Part shown: positions 3,098-43,498 of the stretch, piece by piece
Layout of the letters: the number at the start of each line of letters is the position of its first letter
Position numbering within the stretch: the stretch's first letter is position 1
NCBI GenBank assembly: GCA_037974965.1
Contig: JBBPFI010000005.1
Location: 806,001 to 870,000, forward strand
Direction: 5' to 3'
DNA from: Dacryopinax spathularia
Lineage: Eukaryota > Basidiomycota > Dacrymycetes > Dacrymycetales > Dacrymycetaceae
DNA: 64,000 bases
The notes under the pieces: generated by a model
The model's input: only the letters and a program-made list of their open reading frames with translations
Told to the model about the DNA's origin: nothing
Database searches by the model: none
Program-made: the position numbers and the translations under genes

Positions 3098-3497
3098 TTA
3101 CGCAGCGTCCGCTTGTTCAAATCCCCATAGGTTCGATGCGTGCTGAAAGATGGTTAGCCTTATGTCGCACGCTTCATTGGACATACACCTACTTGCTGAG
3201 CTCTCGCTCTCTCGTATTCGGCTAAGTTCCTCCAACGAGCTCCCATGATCGCCTGAAGGTGGTGCGCGACAGACTAACAACATCGACTCAAAGACTACTT
3301 ACAGCGTACCAACGAATGCGCCTGTTGATCTCATCTTGACCGAGCTCGCGGCCCGGTGGCTGACGACGATCCGTCCTCGTGAGTGGCGCCATTAGGGCGA
3401 GCGGAGGTGCCGTATACCTCCCGCAGGAGGGAGACTTGCGGTCTTCGCCGTCCTCGTTGGGTGGCAGCCCGGACGTGAGCGCGGAACACAGTGGCAT
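3098..3497 (-). CDS. Small HMG-box-like protein, 99 aa, left outer copy
   Basis: Three exons: 3303-3497 (195 nt), 3193-3252 (60 nt) and 3098-3142 (45 nt), all in phase 0, with GTAAGT and GTAGGT donors. The N-terminus begins MPLCSALTSGLPPNEDGEDR and contains YTAPPLALMA. The C-terminal half reads EINRRIRWYAAIMGARWRN, then LAEYERARAQQ. That stretch resembles helices 2 and 3 of an HMG box (ISxxLGxxWxxLSxxER), but the N-terminal strand and helix 1 are not recognisable, so the relation is an inference. The mirror copy at 30455-30854 has identical exon lengths and a very similar protein, which supports the model. It is divergent from the 140-aa gene at 5015, with 1517 nt between starts. Function is unknown; a nuclear DNA-binding role is only a guess. 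Confidence 0.6.
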
Positions 3498-3618
3498 GCT
3501 GCAGAGGTCCTTAAGAATAAGTGAAGTACTGCAACGATTTCTGGAAGCGACTATGGACGTGTGACCGGTTTCTACTCGTTACCGGGACGAGGTGAGTCGT
3601 CTTGCGCATGTCAGTCGT

Positions 3619-3627
3619 GCTTATATC
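3619..3627 (-). promoter_or_regulatory. Core promoter (ATATAAGCA) of the 99-aa gene
   Basis: The minus strand reads ATATAAGCA about 120 nt upstream of the start at 3497. The same string, at similar distance, precedes the mirror gene and the two inner copies. A 12-bp TTTGCGGCGAGA block lies just upstream at 3656-3667 and is also conserved. Confidence 0.5.
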
Positions 3628-3773
3628 CCTTTCGCAGGCATCGCATCTTGCTCGGTCTCGCCGCAAACACAATGCCCCAAAGTCCGAAAGAATCTTCGCC
3701 TTGCGCTCAACGTCCGCCTCGCCTTACGGCCTTCTCTGCTCATGTATGCGCACCTCCGATCAACGGAAGCTTG

Positions 3774-3806
3774 TCTGATAACTCGACGAGGCAGACGACC
3801 AATCGG
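3774..3806 (-). promoter_or_regulatory. 33-bp conserved upstream block: inverted CCAAT plus GATA-type site
   Basis: On the minus strand the block starts CCGATTGGTCGT (ATTGG is an inverted CCAAT) and ends TTATCAGA (TTATC is GATAA reversed). It lies about 147 nt upstream of the TATA box. The same 33-bp layout occurs before all four paralogues, which suggests shared regulation. Confidence 0.45.
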
Positions 3807-3827
3807 CACGCTCAGGGGCATACCCTC

Positions 3828-4900
3828 TCTGTGCATGAGGCGAGCCGTTGATCCCGCAGACTGCCTTATTTGCTGACCCGATAGTGCCGGAAGGATGTGA
3901 CGAGTGGCGGAAATGGCGCTTGGAGCCGGCCAGCCTCGAGGCTGGAGCGCAAATATGGGGCTCCAGACCGGCGATGGGGATTGACGGGTGTACTGTTGGG
4001 GAAGGGCACGCTGTTCTTGATGCGATTGATGCAAAGAAGTGAATGATTGGAGGCCGGCGGTATCTCCGTTACCCCTGTCTGTCATGGTCCTGCATGGCTT
4101 GGAAACGGGGGCGAAGAAGATGTGGCGCGGCAGACGCTGCTCTCCAAGCGGGCTAGTCGAGGAGCCATTCTCAATACGATCATGTACTTTCCAGCGCAGA
4201 ATAATAAGATTCGTTTCTAGAACCAGACACAAATTTCCCGTCCCGAGGATCGCGTTACATTGCTCGTAGCAAGGACTCAGAGGTCCGTACAACCGTGGGA
4301 TCTCCACTGGCAAGGACTGCTGAAACTGGAAACCACACGAATAAGCAGAAACTGCTTGCAAGGGGGTGAGTACGACCCTACGCCATGCGACTGAATGCCC
4401 AACCCACTATAGGATGTCAGTTCATCCCGCTCCCCATTCCAGCGGAGTCATGCACCTACTGTCGCACAGCAGTGAGGAATCACGAGCAACGAGGAGTCTA
4501 GAAAGACGTGCCGAATCGCCATCCTCCAGTCACCGTCTACGTGTTATCTCCCCTCTTCGGCCAAGTGGCCTTGATGAAGTGCGGCGACGGGAAGGGTCCC
4601 TCGTTTGGCTCAGACCGGCATGCTTGAGGAGCCCCTATTCAACCGAATAGGCGAGTCGTCCAAAAAACGCGCAACAGGTAGACGGGTTTCCTCCGTCCAT
4701 CAGAAGGTAACGAGGTCGGCAGAAGTTAGGGTGATATCCATTTTTCTTCCTATCCATACTGGGTCTCACTTCTTCCTTCCGTTTGCCTCGGCAGGGGGGT
4801 CATCACCACGCCTGGTCCGCATTGCGGAGAGCGGTTCTGAGGAGCAGCCTGCCTCCGCATTCCCGCCAGGAAGGGTAGGCGAAGCGTGTCCCGTACGGCC
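3828..4900. other. Long intergenic region between divergent small genes (left)
   Basis: The mirror region in the right arm is of equal length. Short peptide-level similarities between arms (TDRGxG, LSGQQIRQ) occur in a frame open at 3621-4361 minus, but the frame is not kept in the right arm. I read this as conserved upstream DNA rather than a gene. Confidence 0.4.
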
Positions 4901-4913
4901 TTGAAAGAACGAA

Positions 4914-4923
4914 GAGTATAAGT
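4914..4923 (+). promoter_or_regulatory. TATA-like element of the 140-aa gene
   Basis: AGTATAAGTA lies about 95 nt upstream of the start at 5015. The mirror gene has GTATAAGCA about 105 nt upstream of its start. Confidence 0.4.
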
Positions 4924-5014
4924 ACCTGAACCGCTGATGGCGCAACAGAGGTACGCCGTAACCACCTCCACTCACCCAAAGCAGTCCTACACGATCAGTT
5001 CACCAGGAGAAGGC

Positions 5015-5548
5015 ATGGCCAGGATGATTACTCGCGGCTCATTGCGAAAGAGTGAACGACTGAAACCCAAGGCCAATTCTCTGAAGCTGACGGTTACCCG
5101 CCCGAAGCCAAAGACAGCTCACCCCAAGCCCAAGGTTACTCCTCCGAAGGCGAAGGCGAAGGTTCAAAACCACCACGCAAAGCGTGCCCCGCAGAAGCTG
5201 GATAATAAGCCGAATGCGAGGGCGCGTCGCGAGCGTTGCCGCAAGATTCTGGAGAGGATCGAGGCCGTCACTGACCGGTATCAGGCCGAGACCTTCACTT
5301 ACTTCGTGCGTGCAAGCCAGGGCAAGGACTCGAGAAACGCTGACATAGAGCCGCCCTAGGTTTGGCTTGAGAAGAACTGGTCTGGCATGTCGCAGTCCAA
5401 CAAAGAGAAATCCGCGAATGTAAGTCGGCACTGCGCAGAAGCAGCCCGGGTCTTTGCTCACAACGGCTGTTACCAGCTTTTCCTACAAGTCCTTAACGAC
5501 GCGGCTGAGCTTGGGCTCAAGATGAGCACTCTGTGGCAGCTTCGTTAA
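5015..5548 (+). CDS. Lys/Pro-rich small protein, 140 aa, left copy
   Basis: Three exons: 5015-5305 (291 nt), 5360-5419 (60 nt) and 5477-5548 (72 nt), all phase 0; introns are GT..AG (5306-5359 and 5420-5476). The start MARMITRGSLRKSERL is shared with the mirror copy, which favours it over an upstream in-frame Met at 4937. Residues 20-60 are basic repeats of KPK and KAK type. Then comes a helical stretch, RCRKILERIEAVTDRYQAE, followed by the exon-2 peptide NWSGMSQSNKEKSAN and LFLQVLNDAAELG. Without the first intron the frame would stop at DIEPP, so splicing is needed. The copy at 28399-28930 gives the same 97+20+23 residue layout. The middle exon has the same size and phase as in the HMG-like genes, suggesting common descent. 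Function is unknown; the basic region would suit nucleic-acid binding. Confidence 0.6.
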
Positions 5549-5869
5549 GCACCAGCAGAAAGAGCTGGACGGCGATGCGAGGCAGAGGCGGGTGAGACGT
5601 GCAGAGCTCTCGAAGAAGGAGCTTCCACTTTGGTTGTGGTCAATAGCTGTAGTTGCTTCCAGCCGATAGTACAGTATTGTGTGGGGGAGGCTACAGCGCA
5701 ATGCAGTGTCGTACCAGTGACTGCGATGTGAGCCTTCCAGTACGACCTCATTGATTAGCAAGTTATCAAATCCAGGGATCGGATTCGCGAGGGACTTGCA
5801 TCTCAGTCACTAAGCTGGCGGCAGCCGTACCTTGGAACGCATCACGCCATAGCGAATTCTGGCGTGATA

Positions 5870-6290
5870 CTTGAGGCCCTTTGATCGTATTCGTCCATCA
5901 TTCGCAGACAAGCTGGAAGGGAAGAAGGGCGGAAAGCAAAGCGGAACGAGACGCGGAACACAGGGAAACCAGGAGACGCAATGCACATCGTATATGGCGT
6001 GTATTGGTTGCAGAATCTCGACCTATACACGAGCGTGTCCACTGTGGCGGTAGTAGCACAGCCAAGACCTCCAGAGATTCGAGTACGAATCAAGAGCCTA
6101 AGGCTAGATACGAGCAGCGGAGATACGCCCGAAGTCCGCACCGCAAAGATACAGTTCGTCGTACGACGTACCAGGGCCAAGGGAGGGGGCAGGATCCTAG
6201 GCCAATATGAGCAAAACACCAGAGCAGCCTTTATGGCAGTCACTTGGGTCGTGCCTCCAAGCATCATAACCAGATTAACGCATCAGGTAA
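5870..6290 (+). other. Block with conserved peptide, possible unmodelled gene (left)
   Basis: From the ATG at 5981 a frame reads MHIVYGVYWLQNLDLYTS and continues to NTRAAFMAV and VPPSIITRLTHQ, ending at a GTAAACC donor near 6289. The right arm (27660-27982 minus) has MHILYGQSWLQHLELYT and, in a matching frame, NTRAAFIAD and PSIIARSTR before a GTAAAGC donor, but needs at least one stop to be removed between these. A downstream exon from about 6341 (after gcgcag) may follow. I treat it as a probable decayed or unresolved paralogue pair. Confidence 0.3.
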
Positions 6291-6339
6291 ACCGAAACGG
6301 CCAGCTCATCACTCCAAGCCGTCCTTAGCTCGCATTCGC

Positions 6340-7140
6340 GCAGCCGTCCCAGCACTGCGGAGATAGTAATGTTCGCGAATATAGGCGAAAAGGTGAAGCT
6401 TCCATCAAGTCTTCCGTCAGAGGTATCATCATACCAATAGCTCGAGATGAAGGTCGGAGAAAAGCTGCAGGAACAAGAGCAAAAGCTAGGCAAGACGAGC
6501 GGAAACGGCAATGCTCGTGTAAACTCAGGGACAGGGGTCGGCCGATTGGTCTACAGGCCTGCCCTGAAGTAACGCGGGTCTTTTCCCTCCAGTGTGTTGC
6601 GTCCATGATGCGCTGGCACTTTCGCTTCTCTTCGTGCTCTTTCCTCTGCTACTTCGAAGCGGCCATCCACTGCTTGCGCCTGATGGACTTGAGGGATAAA
6701 CCTGCCGAGGATTGCGTACCGGTCCTTCTACACAGGACATGACCAATCTAATCATCGGCTTCTGGCGAACAATGGTTTCATCACAGCTACGAGCAGTGTG
6801 GACATGGGCTCTTTTCAATTCTCCTGGCCGCTTTCAACGCAAAACTCAGTCATCCTCGTATCTTGGCTCTGCTTGAAAGGGCGAGATGTGGTGGACGGCG
6901 CGCGGACGGGTTGTCGATACTGTGTGCAGCAGCCGCCCTGGGCGAAGCTATATGAAGAAGCAGAATCATCATATTCCTCTGGACGAAGGCGTCTTTGCAT
7001 AGAGGTACATATGTCCAGAGGAGAGCAAAAAAAGGGGGGACTGACGTTTCAGTAGGAGAGATGTGATCAGCGTTCGTGTGACTGTATGTGGCCCGCCAGC
7101 ACGCCGCGAAGCTGGGTGTATTTGGCAGCGGGTTCTGGTG
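6340..7140. other. Arm sequence without a supported gene
   Basis: It includes a relative of the 2461-2745 block at about 6600-6720 (MMRWHFRF frame). Long frames at 6275-6606 minus and 6525-6818 minus are not conserved in the right arm. Confidence 0.35.
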
Positions 7141-7145
7141 CTGCC

Positions 7146-7522
7146 TCAGCGCTGCGCAGGACGGTCAAATATTCCAAGATTTGCGGCATGCTGTGAGTTC
7201 GTCAGCAGGCTGTTACACGCTCCCTGGTTGTATGCTCACTTGCAATGCCCTCGCCCTCTCTTCCTCGTTCATCGTGCTCGAGCGAGCTCCCATCGTCGCC
7301 TGAAGCTAGGTTAGCAACTGAAGGACCGTCCTCAAGCATCTTCCCGCTTGCCAAGTACCACTGGATACGCCTGTTGGTTTCCTGCTGCTCTTCGGCGCTT
7401 CCTTGGTCTGGCTGCGCCATGAGCGCCAGAGGAGGAGCGGTGTATCCCCAATTATTGCACTCGCGTCGGTTCTGCTCATCTCTGTTCTCGTTCGGAGGGG
7501 TTCCGCCGCAAGCCAGGGACAT
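7146..7522 (-). CDS. Small HMG-box-like protein, 91 aa, left inner copy
   Basis: Three exons: 7352-7522 (171 nt), 7240-7299 (60 nt) and 7146-7190 (45 nt), phase 0. The protein starts MSLACGGTPPNENRDEQNRR, keeps the family core YTAPPLALMA and NRRIQWYL, and continues ATMGARSSTMNEEERARALQ and HAANLGIFDRPAQR. The tryptophan of GARW in the outer copies is replaced by Ser, weakening any HMG-type core. The first intron has a GC donor (GCAAGC); the mirror gene at 26432 has GTAAGC at the same place. If the GC site is not spliced, the frame reads on to a stop giving a 106-aa product. Its promoter has ATATAAGCA at 7645-7653 and the 33-bp block at 7824-7856. Function unknown. Confidence 0.55.
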
Positions 7523-7644
7523 GCTTCACTTGTTCCTTTGGGGTATGAGATATCTGACAACAGTTTCTGGAAGCCACGTTCGGTGTCTTTCCACTTCCTT
7601 CTGATGGTTAAGAGCTTGGTGAGTTCGACTGTCTCTCGTCTCCA

Positions 7645-7653
7645 TGCTTATAT
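7645..7653 (-). promoter_or_regulatory. Core promoter (ATATAAGCA) of the 91-aa gene
   Basis: It lies about 125 nt upstream of the start at 7522. The same string sits at the same place in the other three paralogues. Confidence 0.45.
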
Positions 7654-7823
7654 CCTTCCCAAAGGCACCTCTGCCTTGCGGCACCCACCTTCTCGCCGCA
7701 AACCCAAACTTGCAAGTGTGACTACCGCCTGCCTGTAAGCACCGGCCGTCTCGATTTGCCGCACATCCTTCTCGGTTTGTGCAGAGAGCACTACAATGGC
7801 TCTCCCCGATAACCGGAGGTCTA

Positions 7824-7856
7824 TCTGATAATCCGATGAGGCAAACGACCAATCGG
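7824..7856 (-). promoter_or_regulatory. 33-bp conserved block (inverted CCAAT plus GATA-type site)
   Basis: Minus strand begins CCGATTGGTCGT and ends TTATCAGA, about 171 nt upstream of the TATA box. This is the same arrangement as at 3774-3806, 26099-26131 and 30143-30175. Confidence 0.45.
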
Positions 7857-8336
7857 AATTGGAAACAGCCAGTCCGACAATTGTATAGGAACCCCTATCA
7901 ATCGGGCAAGCTGCCTTATTTGCAACCCAATTCTCCGTGGAGAATGCGCAGAGACTGAGCGAGGTCGACGGCGACTCATAAACTCGAGGCTGGCGCGCAA
8001 ACCTGGGGTTCGACGGAGGGGAGAAAGGCTATATCGAGCAAGATCGGGAACTGGTAGGCTACGTTGGTGTGTGATTGATGGAAGAGAGTGCCTGGAACGT
8101 CGGAGGCCGGCGGGGTCTCCCTTACCCCTGTCTGTCATGTCTATCGAAGGCTTGCAGGCGGGAGCGTGGAAGACGGGATACAGCGGGCAGTGCTGTAGGG
8201 TTGAAGTGGTGGCGTGACCAGCATGGCAGCAATAAATGGCGCGCAAACTGCGCTATAGAACTGCATGATTATTTTAGAAGCAAACACTACCAGGCTTTCT
8301 CCGTTGTTCCTTAAGCCGAGGTGGTAGGAGAGGATA

Positions 8337-8925
8337 ATGTCTCAATACATACGTGTTGATGCGTATCGTTTCTCTATTGGCAGAAAACTCGCACAAAATG
8401 AGCAGGAAAAGGAACTAATCGACGGGATGTATCGACGCGGAGCGGCGACCAGCGGCGACGAGTGGAAGCATGGAGTAATGTGGAAAACCCGGCGCTACGA
8501 CCATCCAGTCATACAATATAGTACGCGTTCTCTCCCATATTCAGCCAGTTCCCAAGGGACTACCGCACGTACTTATGTACGCATACACGCAAACAACAAG
8601 GCCAGAAGAGCCAACCGTCGTCCACCACGGAAGAACGGTTCGTCCAAGAGAAAGAGGAATTGGTCCACGCCGACGGTCGTTGGCCCAACGCTGGCGAGCC
8701 CTCCTGCAAAGCTGAAGAAGAAGCCAACTCGCAGCTCGTTCAGCTCATCGGCTCGAGATAGGGGAAAAGATCGAGCAGGTTTGTAACCAGATGAGGTTCG
8801 TAGCGGTCGACTACAAGGCGAGTCCATAGGACCTTCATATACCAGGGAAAAAGGATGATCGTGGTCACTAGCAAGTCGTCGACGAAGAATCTAACAACAT
8901 GTCCCAGTCCGAGCAAAAAGAGGTG
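8337..8925 (+). pseudogene. Degenerate relative of the 140-aa Lys-rich gene
   Basis: A basic stretch (NRRPPRKNGSSKRKRNW) is followed, in a different frame, by EKIEQVCNQMRFVAVDY, which aligns with ILERIEAVTDRYQAE of the intact copies. After a possible acceptor at about 8871 comes SNNMSQSEQKE, matching WSGMSQSNKEK of exon 2. The basic and helical parts lie in different frames, and the sequence after the last exon stops quickly. So the copy seems broken, unless an unusual intron joins the frames. It lies just inside the inner end of the left arm. Confidence 0.4.
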
Positions 8926-8929
8926 TAGA

Positions 8930-9880
8930 TTACGCCGTACGCCCGCCTGAGCAAAACCAAGCTCACCCCTTGCTCAAAACGCACTAACCAGCTGGTACCC
9001 TGAGGTTGTGAAGACGCCGTCGACATGTCCATTCCCCATCGTCATGAGCAATTTGTGACCGACGTCGTCAAGACCTCCGGACACGAGCTGGAGAGCGAGA
9101 TGAGGCAGAAGGGGAGAGTGGGATCGCGCAGGAAGGATGATGAAGAGTCCTGGATCAACGGAAGACAGTCCGGTCCGGCTGTTGACAAGAACCAGGAGCG
9201 ACTTTGTCACTTTAGTCTTTAGCCCATATTCCAGCTTCTTCGTCTGACATGGCATAATGATCTCACTAACGCGTGAGCGGTGTGCCTTGTGTTCCATATC
9301 GACAGTGGCTCATAGTCTGGACGGCATGGCCAGGTGTGTAGAAACGTGCCGCGCAAATCCGCAGAGGGGAGATACAGATCGTTGAACTCGACGGGCTCGA
9401 GCTCTCTGCGTACAGCAGGCAACGAGACCCAACAGTGCTGTGAAGCCAGTTCCCTGCCAGCACATCACCGCAGTTGAAGGCACCTTTAGCGTCGTACGCC
9501 CAGCCATGCAGAGGATACGGAGACAGTCCACCAATGTACGGAGCAAGCAAAGCCAACATGTTCCCCCATCCCAGCACCCCGAAACAGGTTCTCGCAGTTG
9601 ACCTAAGTAGGAGCAGGAAGAGTCGAAGCAAGTTGAGTGAGGGTAATAGAGTGAGACACCCTTCGAATAGAAGCTGAACAGACCCCTAAAATAATCCCCC
9701 CTGTTCCCGCTCTGAGACGCGCTCCACACTCATACGCATCATACCGTCGACCCCTACGGCGTGGCTTGTCGCACTCTCACTCATCACCAAGAGTATCGCA
9801 CCGAAGGGCACCGAACTGCGCGCGACACGCTTTGAGTTTGGTATGGGTATGAGAAGGCTGGGTTTGGATGTGGGACCGGG
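8930..9880. other. Region with an unassigned open frame (9266-9631, minus)
   Basis: The minus-strand frame contains GWGNMLALLAPYIGGLSP and NCGDVLAGNWLHS, and a neighbouring minus frame (9219-9422) reads FNDLYLPSADLRGTF. These look protein-like and may be exons of a decayed gene, but I recognise no family and cannot join them. Nothing else is supported here. Confidence 0.25.
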
Positions 9881-9884
9881 GCGG

Positions 9885-9890
9885 TATATA
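9885..9890 (+). promoter_or_regulatory. TATA box of the small secreted protein gene
   Basis: TATATA lies 110 nt upstream of the ATG at 9995, in a GC-rich setting. Confidence 0.4.
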
Positions 9891-9994
9891 GCGCTCGGCG
9901 GCGGGTTTGGGAAGGGCGTATACTGTAATTGGCGATACCACCACCAACGCCGAGTGACCACGAACTGCTAGAGCCACGAACCGTTAGAGGCGAA

Positions 9995-10336
9995 ATGCGA
10001 ACCCATACAACCTTCAGCTCCGTCTCAACGGTCCTTCTCCTCCTCGTCCCAGCCTGTCTGGCCTACCCCATCACTCCCGAAGCCCGCGCCGCAGCTCCCA
10101 ACCCGGCTCCCAACCCCAACCCAAACGCAGACCCAGCTGTGCCAGAACCCATCCTGCGCGACCTCCAACATTCCAACCTCTATTCCCGCTCACCAGAGTA
10201 CTTCGACGACGTCCCACCTCTCGCCATGCGCGAGGAGCTAGAGGTACGGGCCCCCTCTGCCGGTGTGGGAGGGGGCGGACGGGTCACCTCACGGAGCCGG
10301 GGCAGGGAGTATTGGGGCGACGTTCCGAGGGCATGA
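9995..10336 (+). CDS. Small secreted protein, 113 aa, with two EY(F/W)xDVP repeats
   Basis: It is a single exon. The start at 9995 is preferred over the upstream in-frame ATG at 9929 because it places a signal peptide at the N-terminus: MRTHTTFSSVSTVLLLLVPA, then CLAYPI. A Pro/Asn/Ala-rich spacer follows (PNPAPNPNPN). The C-terminal half holds SRSPEYFDDVPPL and, about 45 residues later, SRSRGREYWGDVPRA at the very end. The two repeats share S-R-S, E-Y-aromatic and D-V-P. There are no paired Lys-Arg sites, but single Arg residues flank the repeats. It could be an effector-like secreted protein or a repeat peptide precursor; the sequence alone does not decide. Confidence 0.6.
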   Translation: MRTHTTFSSVSTVLLLLVPACLAYPITPEARAAAPNPAPNPNPNADPAVPEPILRDLQHSNLYSRSPEYFDDVPPLAMREELEVRAPSAGVGGGGRVTSRSRGREYWGDVPRA

Positions 10337-11108
10337 GGTGTGTCTATATGTTCCCTTCTTTTTGTTGGGGATATGGGCTGATGGTACTTCAGCTCTTGAC
10401 TGGCTGATGTGCGTTGTTATGGGTTAGGTCGGACGCGACTTGTTCTCCGGGAACGAGGGTGCGCTGCGGTGCGGTCCACTGAGCGCGTGAGAGAAGGTGC
10501 GCTGTATACATATGTATATACATTAAAGACGAGCTTTGTAGCCATATACATGTACATGTACAAACATAATCTGAACAGTGACACAGTCCATCGTACAGTA
10601 CTTCTCCGCTCGTCGGAATGGTGGGCACTACTCATGACGATCATACACAATTGTTATCCAACATATGCGGCACGCCAGTCAGTCGGGCTAGAACGAAGGC
10701 ACTGTACGAAGCCTTACTTGCTGGGCTCGGCCTCGCCCAAATCTATGCGACCCGAAATTCTCCGCGGTACGGGGGGCGGATTGGTTGACCACCTATGGAA
10801 TACCGCTAATTTAGTAGTATCGGGCAGGACCGGAACTCCCAACACTGCCGGTAAGTAGGGCAAACGACCTCACATCCTCGGCATACAGTCGTTCAGGATA
10901 TAGTAGAGTGCAGGCAAGTGCATACACCTGAGTATCTCCCGCTTAGGACACGTAGAGAACTTGGAAATCAAGCATGTATTTTCCGAGACCTCACAGAAAG
11001 AGAGTGTGTTTTATCTACCCCTAACCCCACCTGCTCTACCTCCCTTGCACCTTGCACCTTCGCACCGAGATGCGATTGAAGTCGTGCTGATGGTGGATGG
11101 AGACGAGC
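10337..11108. other. Intergenic, no supported gene
   Basis: Contains AT-rich ATATACATGTACATGTAC-like palindromic stretches at about 10510-10560. Overlapping frames on both strands have no recognisable features. The 3' untranslated parts of both neighbouring genes must lie here. Confidence 0.4.
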
Positions 11109-18932: not shown

Positions 18933-19151
18933 CCTCTCCGGGGCTGCGTATCGTCTTCGTTTGTTGGAGGTTTGGGATTTTGGCGCATACATTTACATTA
19001 CACTCTTGAGTACGAGTACAGTTACAGTAGACATTGTTTCATTTCATTTGCATTTCGCACACATACATACCTTACACCTTACACCTTGTATCCCTACACT
19101 AGCCTACCCTAGGCAATCATCACATACACTCCAGCAGACAGATGCACAGCT

Positions 19152-21064: not shown

Positions 21065-21070
21065 CGGAAC

Positions 21071-21527
21071 TATGAGGTTACATATGGGTCAAAACCCTGA
21101 GCTAAGCACGCGTCACTCGCTTTTCACTCGCTGTTCACTCCCAAATCACTCCGAAATCGCTCCTCACTCCAAGATCACCCCCTAATCACCCCCTAATCAC
21201 TCTTTCACTCTGTTTTTACTCCCTTTTCATTCCGTCTTCACTCCCTTCCTCACTCCGTTTTCACTCCCTATTCACTCCGAGGGAGTGAGTCTCAACAATC
21301 TCGCAGAAATACAGTGATTTTAGAGTGAAAATGCAGTGATTAGGGAATGAATTAGGAGTGAAAACGGAGTGAAAAGCGAATGAAAACAGAGTGAAGAGTG
21401 ATTCTGGAGTGATTAGAGGATGATCTCGGAGTGAGGAGTGATTTTGGAGTGATTTTGGAGTGAACAGCGAGTGAAAAGCGAGTGATGCGTCTGCAACTCA
21501 GGGTTTTGACCCATATGTAACCTCATA
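21071..21527. mobile_element. Foldback MITE, 457 bp, 6-bp target duplication CGGAAC
   Basis: The ends are perfect inverted repeats beginning TATGAGGTTACATATGGGTC. Nearly the whole element pairs with itself, with each half made of diverged copies of a TCACTCC-type unit. CGGAAC occurs directly on both sides (21065-21070 and 21528-21533). There is no coding capacity, so it is a non-autonomous DNA element. The superfamily cannot be set from the 6-bp duplication alone. Confidence 0.8.
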
Positions 21528-21560
21528 CGGAACATTCCCCGTTTTTGTGTCTACATAACA

Positions 21561-22005
21561 ATGACGAGAGGATTGGGACAAAATGCATTCCCAAATGCTT
21601 GTTTAAGAGACCAGCACCCTAAGTCCGCCATCTACAGTACGAAAGCCTGGGCAGCCCCAGTCCCCCCTATAGAGCACGACTGTGCCTTCGATTGCACTGA
21701 TCAGCCTGATCAGCCCTGATCACTCTATCACCTGTTTTTGGCGGTTGTCCTGATGAGAGAAGCCATTTGCCTCCGCTTTTTGGCCCAAGTTTTATCATTT
21801 AATATTAAACGGGCTTTTGACAGTGACACACAGGGCTGGATAGGGCTGGAAACGATAGGGCGACAATCCCGGGTGAATGCTGCACAGGAGGGCCCATCAG
21901 TGCAGAGCAGGGCACGTGCGGGCTGGTCCGGGCTGATGCGGGCAAGTCCGTGCTCAGCAATGGTGTGCTCTTTGGGAATGCATTTTGTCCCAATCGTCTC
22001 GTCAT
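21561..22005. mobile_element. Second foldback/MITE-like element, 445 bp
   Basis: The ends are inverted repeats of about 38 bp, ATGACGAGAGGATTGGGACA and onward through AAATGCATTCCCAAA, with one mismatch. Internal GCGGGC and CCTGATCAG motifs add partial self-complementarity. No clear target duplication was seen. It has no coding capacity and lies 33 bp from the first element. Confidence 0.65.
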
Positions 22006-22144
22006 ACTCTACCCTTCCGCAAGTTGATTCTCGACCACTGGAAGAGACCAAGGGCGGTAGCACAAGTTCACTCTTTGTTTATTCTCAACTACGTTGTTAC
22101 TCATTCTCGCTCCCGCTCCCATATTCTTGTACATCGCGTACGCT

Positions 22145-23586
22145 TCACAAGTTAACAGTTGCCAACCCTCTCTCATCATACCTTGCCCCCGCAACCGGGA
22201 ACTGATCCAAAATCTTCCTGATCTAATCCTCCAATCAGCCCGTCCCCCTCACCCGGCGCAGAGAGCAGGAACTCACCTCAGCCAGATCCTCCTTCGTCAG
22301 CACCACCTGCGTGCTAGCGATGTTCTCTTTCAGGCCGTCGATACGCGTCGTACCCGGTATGGCGATTATATCGTCTCCCTGCGCGTGGAGCCAGGCAAGG
22401 GCGAGTTGGGAGGGAGTCGCGTTCTTCGATTTGGCCATAGCGGTAATCTTATCCACCAGCTCCACATTCTACACCTCACATCAGCTCCGCTCCCTCCACT
22501 CAATCACGGCAGAATAGCGAGGCGAGGCGAGGCGTTTCTCTTGAAGGAGAAGGAGAAGAACCAGACGCACCTTGGGGAAATTCTCCTCACTAAACCTCGG
22601 CACCGTCAACCTCCAATCTCCCTCCGGCAAATCCCCCCTCTTCCTATATTTCCCCGCCAAGAACCCCCTCGACAGCGGGGAATAAGCGACGAACGTTATC
22701 CCGAGCTCGCGGCACGTGTCCAGGATCCCGTTCGTCTCGACAGACGTCTCGAACAGGCTGTACTCGATCTGAACTGCGGCGATCTTGGCGATCTTGGCGG
22801 CGCGCCGGAGAGTTTGGGGGGAACATTCGGACAGGCCGATGTGCCTATCCGGGTTGGGTCAGTTGAGGTCGCATGCGGGACCGGGGAGGGAGAGGAGGGC
22901 GTACCTGATCTTGCCGGCATCCTGAAGCTCCTTTAGAGCACGGACGGTCTCTTCGATCGGCGTCTTGGGGTCCACACGGTGCTGGTAGTACAGGTCGACT
23001 ATCCCTCGTCAGCAACACCCCAACTCACTAGGATATGAAGGAAGACGCACTGTAGTCCGTCTCAAGAGCCTTTAAGCTAGCCTCGCAAGCCTGGAGGACG
23101 TACTCCCTATCACCCCGGATCCCCGCAAATCCAGGAAGGGCGCCGAACTTCGTGCCTGAACCCCTCGTTAGCTGCTGCTGGATGGGTGAATGGGGAAGAG
23201 GGGACGTACAGAGGAAAATGTCCTTCCTGGGGATATTGGCCGCTTTCATCGCTTTTGCGATCAGGCGCTCGTTCTCGTGGTGTCCCTTTCGGCCGTACAC
23301 GTCTGCGTCCCCAACGGTCAGCTTTGACTGGGCAAGGAAGAGCGCGGGAGAGGGAGAGGGAGACGTACCGGCTGTATCCCACAGACGGCATCCGGCATCG
23401 TAGGCCGCTTTGAACACGGGAATGAACTCTTCTTCTGTCTTGTCGGTTGCGTACAGCGCCTGCCGGTGGGCATGTCAGGGAGTGAGAGAGGTTGCGAGGG
23501 TAGAGGGGTCGTACGGAGAACCCCATCAAGCCCCAGCCGGGGATGGGGACTTCCGTACCGCCGATCTTGCGTGTCGGGAGTGACAT
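22145..23586 (-). CDS. Aldo-keto reductase (YakC/AKR13-like), copy 1
   Basis: Probably eight exons on the minus strand. The start [20 protein letters not shown] at 23586 matches the other copies in the window. The TIM-barrel catalytic tetrad is visible: Asp and Tyr in [11 protein letters not shown] (split by an intron), Lys in FLC-TKFG and His in [13 protein letters not shown]. The NADPH-binding end reads [15 protein letters not shown] and [16 protein letters not shown]. The last exon encodes [17 protein letters not shown] and stops at 22145. Such enzymes reduce aldehydes and ketones with NADPH in the cytosol; the substrate is unknown. The stop lies 140 bp from the second foldback element, so 3' processing could be affected. 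Confidence 0.88.
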
Positions 23587-24820
23587 TGCGTTCGCAGGAG
23601 TTATATCTCGAGCAAGAGTGGTTCAAGTTAAAGTCGGATGGCTGGACTGGTTGGCTTGTTTCTTTCTCGTCCTCCTCTTGCCGACTCGAGGCGGGTTTAT
23701 ATACCTCGAAAGCTCGAGCCTAAGCACCGCCTTTTCGTCAATGTGTCGATTCGCTCCGTACGTTCTCCATCGTCCTCGCCATCCTACAGAAAGTACGGAA
23801 CACCGTGGGACCTCTCTCCATCCCAGCCAGTAGAATAGTCATACTCCCCCTCTCATCCAAGCCAAAAGTCAATACCAAGCGCGTTCAACTGAATAACGCG
23901 TCTCGCATAACACCGAAATACTTACATAACCCTCACCGCCACCAGGGTCCTTCCCCTAAAACAGCGCTAAAAGCCGACAAACGGTGCGAGAAAACCCATG
24001 AAGCGCGCCACTTTTTGGGTGGCTCATGAACCGCGCCAGGCGGGTCCATGGGGCGCGCCACTTTTCGGGTGCGGGGAAGGAGTTGGTCCGCTGCGGGTCC
24101 GGACTTGGCGCGAGTGGAGGGTCTGTGCTGAACGATCGACTCCTGCTCTGGTGGACTCTCAACCTGGTCTTGTCCCAAATTGCGCTTGCTTGGATTCTAT
24201 TCAACGCGCGTCGCATTGTGCTCAACGTCATTCCGATTTACCGGTCAATGCCAGCTATATTCCTTCGGGAAGGTGATACACCGGAACAGAGTCATTCATC
24301 TCTCGCTTTGCAACCTTGCTGGACGGACGTGCTGGTACTGATTGGCTTCACCCCGCAGCTTCTCTTGCGCTTAATGTCTGGTGACCGGGATTGCTGGTAT
24401 CTTGCTTTTGGTGCGCTTTGCTAGTGTCTGGCAAGGCTGTCGCACTTCGCTTTCCAAAGTGGGCAGATGGTCGCGCACATTGAAGTTCTGTAGCTCCGCT
24501 CTGCGGATGTACGCGGTGTCCGCACATGTCGGGCCTTACTATCCATGTTCCTAATCACTGTCGACACGATATTCAGGGTTCACCCGTTGTTCAGATTGAA
24601 ACTTAATGTCAGATGAAAAGATTGGACTTCGGTACCGGCATAACGTCGTTGTTGATTCTTCAAAATGTCTCAGACTTCCTGCGTTCGAGGAAGGAGAAAG
24701 CCAAGCGGAAGCAGCTCGTCGATGCACGGTTGGCATCTTAGCCTTCCCTTGGTTCCATTCTTTTAGAGAGAAACCATCATTCCACCCTACGTACGGACGC
24801 GGTTCACGAGTCTCCTAAAT
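23587..24820. other. Intergenic with a small tandem repeat
   Basis: Three imperfect copies of a roughly 25-bp unit, CATGAAGCGCGCCACTTTTT-like, lie at about 23997-24075. Frames here (24026-24424 plus, 24606-24818 plus) have no recognised motif. Confidence 0.4.
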
Positions 24821-24839
24821 TCCGCCTTCCTGCCAGATC

Positions 24840-25615
24840 CCTCACCCCGTGCGTCTCACTTCGTCGTCCAGCTGCTTTCCGGAGTTCTTGACGAAGCCGA
24901 TCACAAAGCGTTCAAGATAGTCGAAAGATCCACGGCATCGTTGTTTAGCGGAACGGGTGAGATATAGGGGGGCTATCTTCTAGAATGCCCTCAGGGACGG
25001 GCACCTCTTCTATAATGCCCTCCGGCAGAAAATGATCTATAATGCCCTGCCGCATCGGGCTATCTCACGTCATGCACGGTCACTTTTCACTGTGTACTGT
25101 ATCACGTGCACACTCGCAGTTTTGAAATGATATTTTATTGTGGAGCAGTGTCTTGATGTGGAGTGCTGCCCAAGAAGTAGACGTCGGCCCCTTGTGTCCC
25201 ATTTTGGAATATTCCTCAATATGGCAAAATTCATTCATTACACTCCAAGCGGTTATTAACGAGAATTGGTGCGCGTACATTGTTTACAAAATCTGTGCAC
25301 GTGATACAGTACATGGTGAAAAGGGACCATGCATGACGTGAGATAGCCCGATGCAGCAGGGCATTATAGATCATTTTCTGCCGGAGGGCATTATAGAAGA
25401 GGTGCCCGTCCCTGAGGGCATTCTAGAAGATAGCCCGATATAGGGCGTGATGTACATGATGACTGGATGATTGGGGAGACGATCTTCTCTGAGTCTTCGA
25501 AGCTCCCGTTTTCAGCCCTACCGTCTATGATCCCCCTCGCTAGTTTCCCTTCTGTCAAGGTCATTCTGTGGCCTGTGTGCGGTTTTGGCCTGTGAGAAGT
25601 AATACGTAGCGACAC
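24840..25615 (-). pseudogene. Remnant relative of the 140-aa Lys-rich gene, split by a MITE
   Basis: On the minus strand, 25615 to 25446 reads LTEGKLARGIIDGRAENG and SEKIVSPIIQSS. Beyond the inserted element, below 24970, the sequence reads PVPLNNDAVDLSTILNAL. That peptide aligns with LNDAAELGLKMSTLW in exon 3 of the intact genes. A matching tail (GFVKNSGKQLDDEVR) follows in a neighbouring frame. It is in the mirror position of the degenerate copy at 8337-8925. The 467-bp element inserted here would disrupt the gene unless it lies in an intron. Confidence 0.35.
24970..25436. mobile_element. MITE, 467 bp, 9-bp target duplication, Mutator-like
   Basis: Terminal inverted repeats of about 150 bp begin GGGCTATCTTCTAGAATGCC. 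They contain a repeated GAGGGCATT(A/C)TAGA unit. GATATAGGG flanks both ends (24961-24969 and 25437-25445). A 9-bp duplication is the hallmark of Mutator-like elements. There is no transposase frame, so it is non-autonomous. The near-perfect arms suggest a recent insertion. Confidence 0.8.
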
Positions 25616-26098
25616 CTATCTAGCGGAGCCTGGTCTTGTTCAAGTAGATCAGACCCGGGGAGTAGTAGCGCAGAAAGGCTTGTAGCTGCTTCCACGAAAA
25701 TCTTACATTTCTCAATCGGAACCCCCTGATCGATGACTACTAGTCACTCCACTACTTGCAACCCTACAACTGAGTACCCGTCGTACCCCTCCTTCGTACG
25801 CAAGCCTTAGATAGATATGACAGATAGGGGATAACGGAGACTCCGCCGGCCTCCGATATTTCACGCACTTCCCCCCATCAATCACACACCAACGTCGCCT
25901 ACCAGTTCCCGATCTTGCTCGATATAGCCTTTCTCCCCTCCGTCGAACCCCAGATTTGAGCGCTAGCCTCGAGGTTATGACTCGCCGTCCACCTCGCTCA
26001 GTTTCCGCACGTTCTCCACGGAGAATTGGGTGCAAATAAGGCAGCTTGCCCAATTGATAGGGGTTCCTACACAGTTGTCGGACTGGCTGTTTCCACTT

Positions 26099-26131
26099 CC
26101 GATTGGTCGTTTGCCTCATCGGATTATCAGA
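26099..26131 (+). promoter_or_regulatory. 33-bp conserved block (inverted CCAAT plus GATA-type site)
   Basis: Begins CCGATTGGTCGT and ends TTATCAGA, 170 nt upstream of the TATA box at 26301. Confidence 0.45.
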
Positions 26132-26300
26132 TAGACTTCGGCTTATCGGGGAGAGCCATTGTATTGCTCTCTGCACGAGCTGAGAAGGATATGCGGCAGG
26201 TCGAGACGGCCGGAGCTCACAAGGCAGGCGGTAGTCACACTTGCAAGTTTGGGTTTGCGGCGAGAAGGTGGGTGCCGCAAGGCAGATGTGCCTTTGGGAA

Positions 26301-26310
26301 GATATAAGCA
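26301..26310 (+). promoter_or_regulatory. Core promoter (GATATAAGCA) of the 91-aa gene
   Basis: Lies about 125 nt upstream of the start at 26432 and is shared with the three paralogues. Confidence 0.45.
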
Positions 26311-26431
26311 TGGAGATGAGAGACAGTCGAACTCACCAAACTCTCAACCATCAGAAGGGAGTGGAAAGACACCGAACTCGGCTTCCAAAACCTTCAATCG
26401 ACATCTCATATCCCGAAGGAACAGTTGAAGC

Positions 26432-26807
26432 ATGTCGCTGTCTTGCGGCTTTCCTCCGCCGAACGAGGGCAACGGTGATCAGAGCCGACGCGAGTGCAAT
26501 AATGGGGGATACACCGCTCCTCCTCTGGCGCTCATGGCGCAGCCAGACCAAGGGAGTGCCGAAGAGCAGCAGGAAACCAACAGGCGCATCCACTGGTACT
26601 TGGTAAGCGGGAAGATGGTCGAGACCGTCTTCACTTCCTAACCTCGCTTAAGGCGACGATGGGAGCTCGCTCGAGCACGTTGAACGAGCAAGAGAGAGCG
26701 AGGGCACTGCAAGTGAGCATATAACCAGAGAAGCGTGCGACAGTCTGCAGATGAACTCACAGCATACCGCGAATCTTGGCATATTTGACCGTACTCCGCA
26801 GCGCTGA
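26432..26807 (+). CDS. Small HMG-box-like protein, 91 aa, right inner copy
   Basis: Three exons: 26432-26602 (171 nt), 26653-26712 (60 nt) and 26763-26807 (45 nt), matching the left inner copy exactly in length and phase. The protein starts MSLSCGFPPPNEGNGDQSRR, contains YTAPPLALMAQ and NRRIHWYL, and continues ATMGARSSTLNEQERARALQ and HTANLGIFDRTPQR. The first intron uses a GTAAGC donor and an AAG-type acceptor; the left copy has GC at the donor. Function unknown. An alternative frame in exon 1 is also open (DASAIMGDTPLLLWRSWRS) and is also kept in the left arm, but only the chosen frame is shared with the outer 99-aa genes. Confidence 0.55.
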
Positions 26808-26809
26808 GA

Positions 26810-27650
26810 CAGCACCAGAACCCACTGCCAAATACACCCAGCTTCGTGATATGCTGGCAGGCCAGCATACAGTCACACGAACGCTGATCATATCTCTCTT
26901 GCTAGGACGTCAGTCCTACTTTGTCTCTTTCCCTCTGGATGTACTCCTCTATGCAGCGAGTCCTTCGTCGAGTCCTTCGTCCAGAGGAATATGATGATTC
27001 TGCTTCTTCATGTAGCTGCGCCTAGCGCTGCTGCGGCTGCGGCACACAATGTCGACGGGCCGTCAGCGCACCGTTAACCGTGTCTCGCGCTTTTAAGCAG
27101 CCCCGAAAATGAGATACGAGTATGACCGGAGTTCCGCGCTGAAGTCGACCATGAGGTTTGACCAGAGAATATGTCCGCGCTGCGCGCAATTGCGATGCAG
27201 CAGCAGATTGGTTATGTCCCGTATAGAAAGCTCGGTTCGCATCCCTCAGCAGATTGTATCCCTCAAGTCCATCACGCGCAAGCAGTGAATAGCCGCTTTA
27301 TTATAAAGTAGCAGAGGAAAGAGCAGGAAGAGAAACGAAAGTGCCAGCACATCATTGCCCGATCCAACACACCAAGAGCGAAAAGACCCGCTTTACTTCA
27401 GGGCAGGCCTGTGGACAAGCGGCCGACCCCTGTCCCTGAGGTTACACGACGATTGCCGTTTCTGCTGTGGTGTTGCCTCGGTTTCGCTATTGCTCTTGTA
27501 GCTTCTCTTCAACGTTCATCTCGAGCTGTTGGTATCGTTAGACCTCTCAAGGACGACTTGATGGAACGCTTCCCTTTCCTATATTCGCGAACATGACTGT
27601 CTCCGCACTGGCACGGCTGTGCGAAAACGAGCAAAGGACGACTTGATTGA
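26810..27650. other. Right-arm sequence without a supported gene
   Basis: Mirror of 6300-7140. A block near 27300-27480 corresponds to the MMRWHFRF block in the left arm, but its frames are interrupted here. Confidence 0.35.
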
Positions 27651-27659
27651 TGATCTGGT

Positions 27660-28070
27660 CATCTCGCTTTACCCGACGCGTTGATCTGGCTATAATACTT
27701 GGGAACGCGACGGAAGAGCTGTCTGCGATAAAGGCCGCTCTGGTGTTCCGCGAGGATTGACCTAGAATCTCGCTCTCTCCCTTGGCACTCGTACCTCGTG
27801 CGACGAACGGTATCTTCGCAGGGCGGAGTTAGGACGTGTTTCCGTAGCCCGTATCCGGCCTTAGGCTCTTGATGCGCACTCAAATCTCTTCGTGGTCTTG
27901 GTTAGGATACTATCGCCGCAGTGGACGCCCTTGTGTACAGCTCGAGATGCTGCAACCAACTCTGGCCATATAGGATGTGCATTCTATCTCCTGCTTCCCC
28001 TATGCTCCACGTCTCTGGCTTTCCGCGCTTCTTCCTTTCCAGCTTGTCTGTGAATCCTTGACGAAGGCGA
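27660..28070 (-). other. Mirror of the conserved-peptide block (right)
   Basis: The minus-strand ATG at 27982 begins MHILYGQSWLQHLELYT. A further stretch in another frame reads GESEILGQSSRNTRAAF, matching ILGQYEQNTRAAF in the left arm. Stops lie between these parts, so this copy looks decayed or has unresolved introns. Confidence 0.3.
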
Positions 28071-28398
28071 CCAAAGGGTAGATCTCAAACATCATACGAG
28101 AACCCGCTGCGGCCTGATGCATTCGAAGGTACGGCGGCCACCAGCTTCGTGATTGACCTGGATTTGGGAACCTTCCCACCAATGGGGTTGTATCGGAACG
28201 CTTACATCGCACTCACCGATGCAACACTGCATTGCGGACTCACGTTCTCCCCACATGATGCTGTACATACTACCGGCTGAAGCTACTACAAGTAGTGATC
28301 TCTACCAGAATGGGTTCCGTGGAAGCTCGGTGTCTGCAGCGCACTCCACGCCTCATCCCCCTCCGCTTCGCACCGCGTCCAGCTGTCTTTTGAGGCGC

Positions 28399-28930
28399 TT
28401 AACGAAGCCGCCATAGGGTACTCAGCATGAAGCCAAGATCGGCAGCCTCGTTAAGGGCTTTGAGAAATAGCTGGTAAAGCTGTTGTGAGCCAAGGCTAGG
28501 ATGTTTCTGTGCAGTGCGGACTTACATTCGCAGATTTCTCTTTGTTAGACTGGGACATGCCAGACCAGTTGTTCTGAAGCCACAACTACGGCGGGTCCTT
28601 GTCAGTATTGATCCGGGAAATGGCCTGGCTTGAGCGCACGAAGTACATGAACGTCTCAGCCTGATACCGCTCGGTGACGTTCTCGATCTTCTCCAGAATC
28701 TTGCGAGAACGCTCGTGACGAGCCCTCGCACTTGGCTTATTCTTCAGCTTCTTGGATGTATGTTCTGTGTTTCGACGTTGCACCTTCGCCTTCGCCTTTG
28801 GAGGGGTAACCTTTGGCTTCGGACGAGTAACGTTCGGTTTGCGGCGGGTAACCGTGAACTTCAGAGAGTCGGGCTTCGGTTCTAGTCGTTCGCTCTTTCG
28901 CAATGAGCCGCGAGTGATCATCCTCGCCAT
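28399..28930 (-). CDS. Lys/Pro-rich small protein, 140 aa, right copy
   Basis: Three exons: 28640-28930 (291 nt), 28526-28585 (60 nt) and 28399-28470 (72 nt), identical in length and phase to the left copy at 5015-5548. The protein starts MARMITRGSLRKSERLEPK, has the KPKV and KAKV basic repeats, then RSRKILEKIENVTERYQAE. Exon 2 gives LWLQNNWSGMSQSNKEKSAN and exon 3 LFLKALNEAADLGFMLSTLW. The first intron ends at CCGCCGTAG, as in the left copy (CCGCCCTAG). The gene is divergent from the 99-aa gene at 30455 with 1524 nt between starts, against 1517 in the left arm. A minus-strand GTATAAGCA near 29030-29038 is a likely TATA box. Function unknown. Confidence 0.6.
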
Positions 28931-28939
28931 ATTGCTGCA

Positions 28940-30140
28940 GCTTTGCGCGGCTGAAGGATGTTTTGGAGTGCCTTGGCTGAGTGGAAGTGGTTACGTCGTA
29001 TTTGTACGTCTGTTGTTCTCTAATGGACGGATGCTTATACTCTACTTTGGCAGTAGGAGCTCGCTCCGCCTACCTTTGGTGGCGGGAATGCAGAACCCCC
29101 CAATTACCTGCGGACCAGGCGCGGCGATAACCTCCCTGCCGAGGAAAACGGAAGGCAGACGGGACACCTGGTTTGAATATCAAGAAGAATGGTCATCACC
29201 CTAAATTCTTCGAACTTCCATACGTTTTGATGGGCGGAGGAAACCCATCCCCCTGCTGCGTGTATTTTTGGACGACTTTCTTATTTGGTGGAATAGGGGC
29301 TGATCAAGTATGCCGCTGTCCGCTATCCCTCTAAACGAGGCACCCTTCCCGTAGCCGTACGTTCCCAAGGCCAGTTGGCCGACAAGGAAAGACAATACGT
29401 ATGCCGTGACTGGAGGATGGGGATTCGGCATGTATCTTCAAACTCCTCGTTGCTCGTGATTTCTCACTGCGGTGCGACTGTAGGTGAATGACTCGGCTGA
29501 AACGGTCAGCGTCATGAGCTGACAACCTGTAGTGGGTTGGTCAATCAGTCGAATGGTGTACGGTCGTACTCACCTCCCTGGGCCCAATTCTGCTTATTCG
29601 TGTTTCTCCAGTTTCAGCAGTCGTGGTCAATCAAGATCTCGCGATTGTACGGACCACTGAGTCCTTGATACCGACTAATCCCATGATTACTGAGGTTTTG
29701 TCGGGACGGGATATTTTTGGCTGCTTTTATGAACGAATATTATGATTGTGTACTGGAAACCGACATTGTTACATTGAGAATGGCCCTGGACCAGCCCGGA
29801 TGGAGAGCAGCGGCTGCCGTGCCCCATCTTCCTCGTTTTCGTGTCCGAGCCCTGCAGGTGCACGACAGACAGGGGTAGTGGAATCATCGCCGGTCTCCAT
29901 GCTCCGTTCACTTCTTCCATCAGTCCCATCAAATGCAGCGTGCCCTTCCCCAATAGTACTCCCGCCAATTCCCATCTCCGCTCTGGAGCCCCATATTTGC
30001 ACACCAGCCTCGAGGCTCGCTCGCTCTACGCGACATTTCCGGCTCTCCTCATATCCTTCCGGCACTTGTCGGGTCAGCAAATAAGGCAGGCAGCCCAATC
30101 AAGGGCTCACCTCACACACTCATAAGGCATGCCCTTGAGG
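28940..30140. other. Long intergenic region between divergent small genes (right)
   Basis: Mirror of the left intergenic region. Frames at 29687-30098 on both strands overlap and are not retained in the left arm. No gene is supported. Confidence 0.4.
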
Positions 30141-30142
30141 CT

Positions 30143-30175
30143 GCCGATTTGTCGTCCGCCTCGTCGAGTTATCAG
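30143..30175 (+). promoter_or_regulatory. 33-bp conserved block, CCAAT part altered
   Basis: Same block as in the other three genes, ending TTATCAGA, but here ATTGG reads ATTTG. It lies about 149 nt upstream of the TATA box at 30324-30332. If the CCAAT site matters, this copy should respond differently. Confidence 0.4.
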
Positions 30176-30323
30176 ACTCCGTTGATAGGAGGTGCCCATG
30201 CATGAGCAGAGAAGGTGTGATGGGATGTCGATGCGGCTCTTGCGCGCAAGGCGAAGATTCGTTCGGACTTTGTGGGTTCGCATTTGCGGCGAGACGGGGC
30301 AAGGTGAGGTGCCTACGAAATAG

Positions 30324-30332
30324 ATATAAGCA
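30324..30332 (+). promoter_or_regulatory. Core promoter (ATATAAGCA) of the 99-aa gene
   Basis: Lies about 125 nt upstream of the start at 30455; conserved in all four paralogues. Confidence 0.45.
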
Positions 30333-30454
30333 CGGCTGGCATGCCCAGGCTGACTCACCTCGTCCCCGGCAAGGAGAGGAAACCGTGAAGACGTCCATCG
30401 TCGTTTCCGTAAACCGGCGTAACCGCTTCAGGATTCTATACAAGGATTCATAGG

Positions 30455-30854
30455 ATGCCACTCTGTTCCGCGCTCGCGTCAGGGCTGCCACCCAACGAGG
30501 ACGGTGAAGACCGCAAGTCTCCCTCTTGCGGGAGGTATACGGCGCCTCCGCTTGCCCTGATGGCGCCGCTTACGAGGTCGAATCGTCGCCAGCCGCCCGG
30601 CCGCGAGCTGGGTCAAGATGAGATCAACAGGCGCATACGTTGGTACGCCGTAAGTCCACTGTCGGTCGGTGTCGGTTGCACGTCGCTCACCACGTCTAGG
30701 CAATCGTAGGAGCTCGCTGGCGCAACCTAAGCGAATACGAGAGAGCGAGAGCTCAGCAGGTAGGCGCATGTCCAACGGAGCGTGTGACAGGGCACTAACC
30801 ATCTTTCAGCACGTCTCGAACCTATTCCGATTTGAACGAACGGATGCTGCGTAG
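30455..30854 (+). CDS. Small HMG-box-like protein, 99 aa, right outer copy
   Basis: Three exons: 30455-30649 (195 nt), 30700-30759 (60 nt) and 30810-30854 (45 nt), identical in length to the left outer copy. The protein starts MPLCSALASGLPPNEDGEDR. The core reads EINRRIRWYAAIVGARWRN and LSEYERARAQQ, then HVSNLFRFERTDAA. GARWRNLSEYER is the best resemblance to HMG-box helices 2-3 in the window. Most differences from the left copy fall in the last 15 residues and in introns. Role unknown; a small DNA-binding or partner protein is an inference only. Confidence 0.6.
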
Positions 30855-41970: not shown

Positions 41971-41980
41971 TATATAAGCA
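41971..41980 (+). promoter_or_regulatory. TATA box (TATATAAGCA) of the first tandem gene
   Basis: Fifty nucleotides upstream of the ATG at 42030, followed by GCGCAT. The second gene has the same string at 43499. Confidence 0.5.
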
Positions 41981-42029
41981 GCGCATTTCGGTACAACGAC
42001 TGGCAAACGCAACTTACCTCTGTGCATCA

Positions 42030-43490: not shown

Positions 43491-43498
43491 TGGAAAGG

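Follow-up and report, generated by a model that had tools for sequence, protein, structure and literature searches.

The locus described here raises the question of what four copies of a small gene in the fungus Dacryopinax spathularia are, and how they came to stand in mirror-image pairs. They lie in a 64,000-nucleotide stretch of contig JBBPFI010000005.1 (C5, 2.13 Mb; C5:806001-870000), the whole of which we refer to as the window, and searches of the organism's own genome covered 29.2 Mb in 24 contigs. The genes, designated A, B, C, and D (the A-type genes), appear to be spliced, to form a family without a recognisable relative, and to have been kept by selection. Our best explanation is that an A-type gene and a partner, which we call E, make up a head-to-head module that has been duplicated, and that the two may act as paired small nuclear proteins; we put the probability of this explanation as a whole at roughly 0.4.

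Genes A (3098..3497) and B (7146..7522) are on the minus strand and C (26432..26807) and D (30455..30854) on the plus strand, at the positions given by an earlier reading of the sequence alone (the sequence-only reading). Splice enumeration and translation give a middle exon of 60 nt and a last exon of 45 nt in all four, as that reading had it, and the shared residues that it named are present in the alignment of A–D. The predicted exons are 3497-3303, 3252-3193, and 3142-3098 for A (99 aa) and 7522-7352, 7299-7240, and 7190-7146 for B (91 aa); C (91 aa) has exons of 171, 60, and 45 nt and D (99 aa) of 195, 60, and 45 nt, each with two introns of 50 nt. When introns were restricted to GT-AG and the exon lengths fixed at 60 and 45 nt, there was one open model each for A, B, and C and four for D, one of the latter in the family register and three with other splice sites. 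The sole GT-AG model of B is 102 aa long and is without the family middle exon; a family protein of 91 aa is obtained from B only if intron 1 is GC...AG (52 nt). The statement that none of the copies is interrupted thus applies to A, C, and D, which are open with GT-AG introns, but B needs a GC donor in its first intron. The eight introns are 49–52 nt long, none a multiple of three, and residue identity is 89/99 for A and D, 76/91 for B and C, and 46/88 for A and B.

The four genes occupy an inverted repeat, the left arm of which (2474..8221, plus strand) contains A, E1, and B and is aligned to 31487-25740, and the right arm of which (25740..31487, minus strand) contains C, E2, and D. The arms are 77.3% identical over 5890 alignment columns and are separated by a 17.5-kb spacer; no third copy of the arm is found elsewhere in the genome at an E-value of 0.001 or less. 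The A-type unit is present twice per arm, spaced 4050 and 4045 bp apart as measured by a promoter footprint (below). In a four-way alignment 403 columns group A and D against B and C, 8 group A and B against C and D, and 11 group A and C against B and D, a split that points to a tandem duplication first and an inverted duplication later, with little exchange since. The 23% divergence likewise argues against recent homogenisation over the full extent of the arms. Despite that divergence, 80 bp upstream of B (7655-7734) match their counterpart upstream of C (26222-26301) at 99% identity, which would reflect either gene conversion confined to this block or strong constraint on an element there.

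Each arm also contains a predicted partner gene, which the sequence-only reading, having found the family, missed, as it did the inverted repeat and the fact that one splice site of B is non-canonical. E1 (5015..5548, plus strand; exons 5015-5305, 5360-5419, and 5477-5548) lies between A and B, and E2 (28399..28930, minus strand; exons 28930-28640, 28585-28526, and 28470-28399) between C and D. Both have exons of 291, 60, and 72 nt encoding 140 aa with isoelectric points of 10.9 (E1) and 11.2 (E2), 103 of the 140 residues are identical, and residues 1-60 form a lysine-rich tail with a net charge of about +17. E1 starts 1517 bp from A and E2 1524 bp from D, each transcribed away from its neighbour and therefore head to head with it. 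The inner modules have E-like remnants in matching places. The remnant facing B (8709..9118, plus strand) consists of stretches 8709-8780 and 8898-9118 that match E as DNA (62% over 228 columns to E1, E-value 3e-8; 69% over 74 columns to E2, E-value 1e-5), with no protein-level match to E1 at an E-value of 10 or less; the remnant facing C (24841..24942, minus strand) is 67% identical to E1 over 104 columns (E-value 2e-7, at the DNA level), and again no protein-level match to E is seen at 10 or less. In our reading, the unit is a divergent gene pair that probably occurs four times, with both members in two of the copies and the A-type gene alone in the others. Adjoining the right remnant, just inside the right arm, is an inverted-repeat element (24970-25436; 143-nt arms, 97%) that resembles a miniature inverted-repeat transposable element and has related copies on contigs C1 and C3.

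Comparison of the arms indicates that these reading frames are coding. In the pairs A/D, B/C, and E1/E2, 850 of 999 coding columns are identical and there are no indel events, against 238 of 308 intron columns (77.3%) with 4 indels and 3400 of 4311 other columns (78.9%) with 63. The expected number of coding indels is 14.6 (Poisson P ~5e-7), a value conditional on the pairs having been picked because they are intact. Coding identity is 263/300 (87.7%) for A, 247/276 (89.5%) for B, and 340/423 (80.4%) for E. Neutral simulation, with 5000 runs at the observed number of nucleotide changes, predicts 24.7 amino-acid changes between A and D where there are 10, 53.3 between E1 and E2 where there are 37, and 20.0 between B and C where there are 15; values as low occurred in none of the runs for A/D and E, and in 119 for B/C. 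Nonsynonymous and synonymous rates (dN/dS) are 0.063/0.396 for A/D, 0.093/0.197 for B/C, and 0.145/0.609 (0.24) for E1/E2 by NG86, and 0.077/0.266 for A/D and 0.149/0.521 for E1/E2 by YN00, with B/C not computable by the latter. In a scan of 37 conserved frames the best is the antisense of A, the exon-1 frames of A and E are second and third, and the exon-1 frame of B (0.59) falls behind some non-gene frames; other frames outside A or E, among the best 25 of the 37, have dN/dS of at least 0.4. These values argue clearly for purifying selection on A/D and on E, and the evidence for B/C is weak, such that the earlier proposition that retention of frame implies selection is upheld for the outer pair and weakly for the inner one.

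The upstream regions are also conserved. Among the four promoters, aligned over 704 columns (101-804 upstream of the ATG), 296 columns are invariant, and the longest invariant runs are GCAAATAAGGCAG (13), TTTGCGGCGAGA (12), and a TATA-like GATATAAGCA (10). Column shuffles give a run of 13 in 49 of 10000 cases. The GCAAATAAGGCAG 13-mer has six exact sites in the genome, four of them at the A–D promoters: upstream of A (3861..3873, minus strand), B (7911..7923, minus strand), C (26032..26044, plus strand), and D (30077..30089, plus strand). In the promoter of A the TATA-like sequence (3618..3627, minus strand) precedes the ATG by ~130 nt. Downstream of all four A-type genes there is a conserved stretch of 50–60 bp (2561-2621, 6606-6666, 27306-27354, and 31345-31393); it resembles an exon, and a third gene per module was considered there but dropped, the frame differing by eye between the A side and the D side.

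Orphan gene families are common, and both families at this locus appear to be of this kind. A word-based search of 5.8 billion proteins, a set in which Calocera and Dacryopinax are represented to some extent at least and in which unannotated small genes would escape, gave no homologue at an E-value of 1 or less for A–D (189 candidates) or for E (103 candidates); among fungal assemblies this genome was searched, and no further A-type or E copy was accepted in it. The eight matches to A-type proteins in the genome are pieces of A–D, a match (L009) that overlaps D and is in frame with exon 3 of that gene, and a weak match (L010, E-value 0.03) set aside as chance, with three stops inside (3000 of 3195 bases read); another (L026, E-value 0.06) with two stops inside was set aside likewise. 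Pfam matches of protein C to DOR (0.016), of E1 to DUF7157 (0.14), and of E2 to Bromo_TP_like, DUF4551, and GemA (0.03–0.05) were under the cut-off, and matches in PDB to two designed proteins (0.04 and 0.11) and to a DarA chain (1.4) are no better than chance. Among the listed titles from searches of open-licence papers, none is on the A/E locus or either family. The proposal of a new family therefore agrees with the searches of Pfam, PDB, the 5.8 billion proteins, and this genome. With no homologue found and selection on the coding sequences of A/D and E (weak for B/C), the A-type and E families are probably new orphan families, and the A/E unit a real, lineage-restricted two-gene module.

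The sequence shows a module of one A-type and one E-type gene, head to head, that was first duplicated in tandem with a period of ~4.05 kb; an inverted copy of the resulting pair arose afterwards. The outer modules have kept both genes, and the inner ones the A-type gene and no more of E than a remnant. A and E may be co-expressed from the ~1.5 kb intergenic region that they share, and would be small nuclear proteins acting together on DNA or chromatin, with the lysine-rich tail of E presumably holding nucleic acid. Contact between A and E, or with DNA, could be through a short tryptophan-bearing stretch of the 60-nt middle exon; the inner copies B and C, which have no clear partner and are without that tryptophan, are under weaker constraint. 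The suggested function as paired small nuclear proteins is inferred, as is the co-expression.

Several observations weigh against parts of this explanation. Splicing of A–D and E and co-expression of A and E are predictions from sequence, and a branch-point-like CTRAY motif is present in five of the eight introns of A–D and in two of the four of E. The E introns are 54, 57, 54, and 55 nt long, three of the four being multiples of three. With net charges of +1.6 (A), +4.6 (D), -2.4 (B), and -1.3 (C), none of the A-type proteins is strongly basic, and E has no Pfam match above the cut-off. In B/C, the 200 nt upstream (180/198) are at least as well conserved as the coding sequence (247/276). The left E remnant adjoins a 152-aa open frame (8328-8786), and a diverged working gene rather than a remnant may be present there. 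Finally, when the whole profile of A–D is compared with E, 93 of 200 shuffles reach the score, and the middle exon shared by the two types may be a coincidence.

The relation of A to E rests on this exon, which is 60 nt long between phase-0 introns in both types and has a tryptophan at codon 7 in A, D, E1, and E2. For A and D, 22–61 of 5000 shuffles reach the ungapped scores of the middle exon against E1 and E2; for B and C, 150–468 of 5000 do. Kinship of A and E is thus suggestive only. A bolder version, in which the two would be ancient paralogues, both HMG-like remnants with the conserved helix on the 60-nt exon, forming an obligatory DNA-binding pair new to fungi in which loss of E released the inner A-type genes, is in our view a long shot; the four modules would then preserve a record of how a partner-dependent pair evolved.

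The sequence-only reading described the family as having an HMG-box-like core, and the corresponding alternative to the module proposal is that the A-type proteins derive from a true HMG-box transcription factor of the fungal MATA_HMG or HMGB type that lost helix 1, and that they bind DNA through what remains of helices 2 and 3. By eye, GARWRNLSEYERA of D fits G-x-x-W-x-x-L-S, but Pfam gives no HMG box for any of the four (0/4) at an E-value of 10 or less with HMMER filters on, which discard most matches above ~0.1, and none of the nine places in the genome found with PF00505 is on C5. We built a profile from 12 HMG boxes, seven of those nine places and five from PDB; the remaining two places, L017 and L018, were omitted as short or weak. 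Comparison of A–D with this profile by hhalign aligns 25 columns, from helix 2 to helix 3, with a score of 24.1, a probability of 32%, and an E-value of 5e-4 for a single comparison. The score is above those of all 200 column shuffles (maximum 17.5), and D alone scores 23.1, where the highest values for 212 control segments taken from other long open frames in the window are 20.7 and 20.3. As HMG was chosen among about 25,000 families, however, the match is not significant; over 24,736 Pfam families the E-value would be ~12.

The resemblance is also uneven among the proteins and along their length. In local comparison the score is reached by 0 of 200 shuffles for A–D and for A/D, 1 of 200 for B/C, and 17 of 200 for E, and in global comparison of the domain-sized part by 0 of 200 when all columns are shuffled, 46 of 200 for B/C, and 75 of 200 for E, which leaves B/C marginal and E within the shuffle range. 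Shuffling only the part before NRRI gives a score as good in 116 of 200 cases (global) or 85 of 200 (local), showing that this part adds nothing to the match. Local alignments cover 25–27 columns, rather than the full three-helix domain of ~70 residues, and the core tryptophan of helix 2 is W in A and D and S in B and C. An HMG-box-like core as a statement about the family is not sustained, the resemblance extending over 25 residues with helix 1 absent; it would be a short motif, real or coincidental, without membership, and we consider descent from a true HMG-box factor unlikely. Two divergent HMG-box genes with domains ~2.2 kb apart are present on another contig (L015 and L016, C17:457892-460553).

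The tight head-to-head arrangement, the failure to find relatives, the duplications, and the apparent loss of one partner from both inner copies would also be expected of a selfish toxin–antidote pair (a meiotic driver or killer), here two small linked lineage-specific genes spread by duplication. All copies found are at a single locus, however, Pfam names no known family, and selection on A/D and E is purifying rather than for fast change, and we regard this account as improbable. That A and E were once accessory genes of a mobile element, since taken over by the fungus, is a little less probable again: small genes without known relatives in an inverted repeat, with the element having C1 and C3 relatives just inside the right arm, are compatible with it, but the arms have no other match in the genome at an E-value of 0.001 or less, and no transposase or viral domain scores above the cut-off in ten scanned proteins and frames of the locus. 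The signs of a transposable element, dispersed copies or a transposase, were thus absent from the genome search and from these ten proteins and frames.

Chance open frames, or dead copies carried in a duplicated segment, would account for the lack of homologues, the one non-canonical splice site, the weak selection on B/C (119/5000), and the rank of the B exon-1 frame in a scan topped by the antisense of A. Such frames would not account for the absence of indels from 999 coding columns, for amino-acid changes far below neutral in A/D and E (0/5000 each), or for the second and third places of the A and E exon-1 frames among the 37, and it is very improbable that these are not genes. A sex-determining or mating-type-switching cassette, to which an inverted repeat with a 17.5-kb spacer and an HMG-like motif might point, is hardly credible when the arms differ by 23% and a search that covered STE3 and homeodomain genes, pheromone genes not being among those searched, placed two STE3 receptor genes on C9 and homeodomain matches on C2 and C12 above the cut-off and on C17 below it, with none of either on C5. 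The two STE3-like genes (L027 and L028, C9:379541-391317), both in this one genome, are divergent and separated by ~10 kb.

The surroundings of the module are ordinary. The A/E locus sits between a gene for an IBR protein and that for mitochondrial L20, and the window also encodes malate dehydrogenase, a beta-helix protein, alcohol dehydrogenase, aldo-keto reductases, and Ssr4. The proteins matching a HAM1-like gene (59775-62057) include those of Calocera cornea and C. viscosa, at 82% identity, and that of Dacryopinax primogenitus, at 78%; no other among the best 120 of 508 matches exceeds 64%, a pattern that places the organism close to the Dacrymycetes, or jelly fungi. Three aldo-keto reductase genes or parts of genes are present at 22277-23586, 31773-33028, and 47426-48687, all on the minus strand and with 67–78% DNA identity in the pieces that match; Pfam matches were obtained for 31773-33028 and 47426-48687. 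The right arm lies between 22277-23586 and 31773-33028, and the latter ends ~290 bp outside it. A second inverted repeat (21071-21527) has 134-nt arms at 89% and many short TCACTC-like repeats, and a tandemly duplicated stretch (41758-42706 and 43288-44188) is 65–68% identical and includes two open frames that were scanned without a Pfam match. Bacterial promoter and terminator scans and Rfam, tRNA, and plasmid searches gave nothing useful.

Should A and E truly be paired, this locus offers a natural experiment on a small scale, in which a duplicated gene has evolved with its partner in the outer modules and apparently without it in the inner ones, on one chromosome. Two small spliced families with conserved promoters and without a relative in 5.8 billion proteins are either young or examples of genes that annotation misses.

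Among known systems, HMG-box proteins (PF00505; fungal MATA_HMG and HMGB) share with A and D a 25-residue stretch that contains G-x-x-W and is directly preceded by an intron, but the A-type proteins have no detectable helix 1 and no Pfam match, have lost the tryptophan in B and C, and are 91–99 aa long. The MAT alpha1 domain (MATalpha_HMG), described in PMC2999568 as a diverged HMG relative, is a precedent for an HMG descendant that is hard to recognise by sequence; in the alpha1 domains examined in that study three helices are retained at Sox2 positions, whereas a single stretch of the domain is detectable in the A-type proteins. The homeodomain HD1/HD2 pairs of basidiomycete mating-type loci are likewise divergently transcribed, but the A/E pair has no homeodomain, and the homeodomain matches of this genome are on other contigs. 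The closer likeness is to orphan families amplified by segmental duplication, with which the A and E genes share the lack of identified relatives, the small number of copies, local duplication, and purifying selection, and from which they differ in that two genes have apparently stayed together, head to head, in a module whose promoter footprints are conserved.

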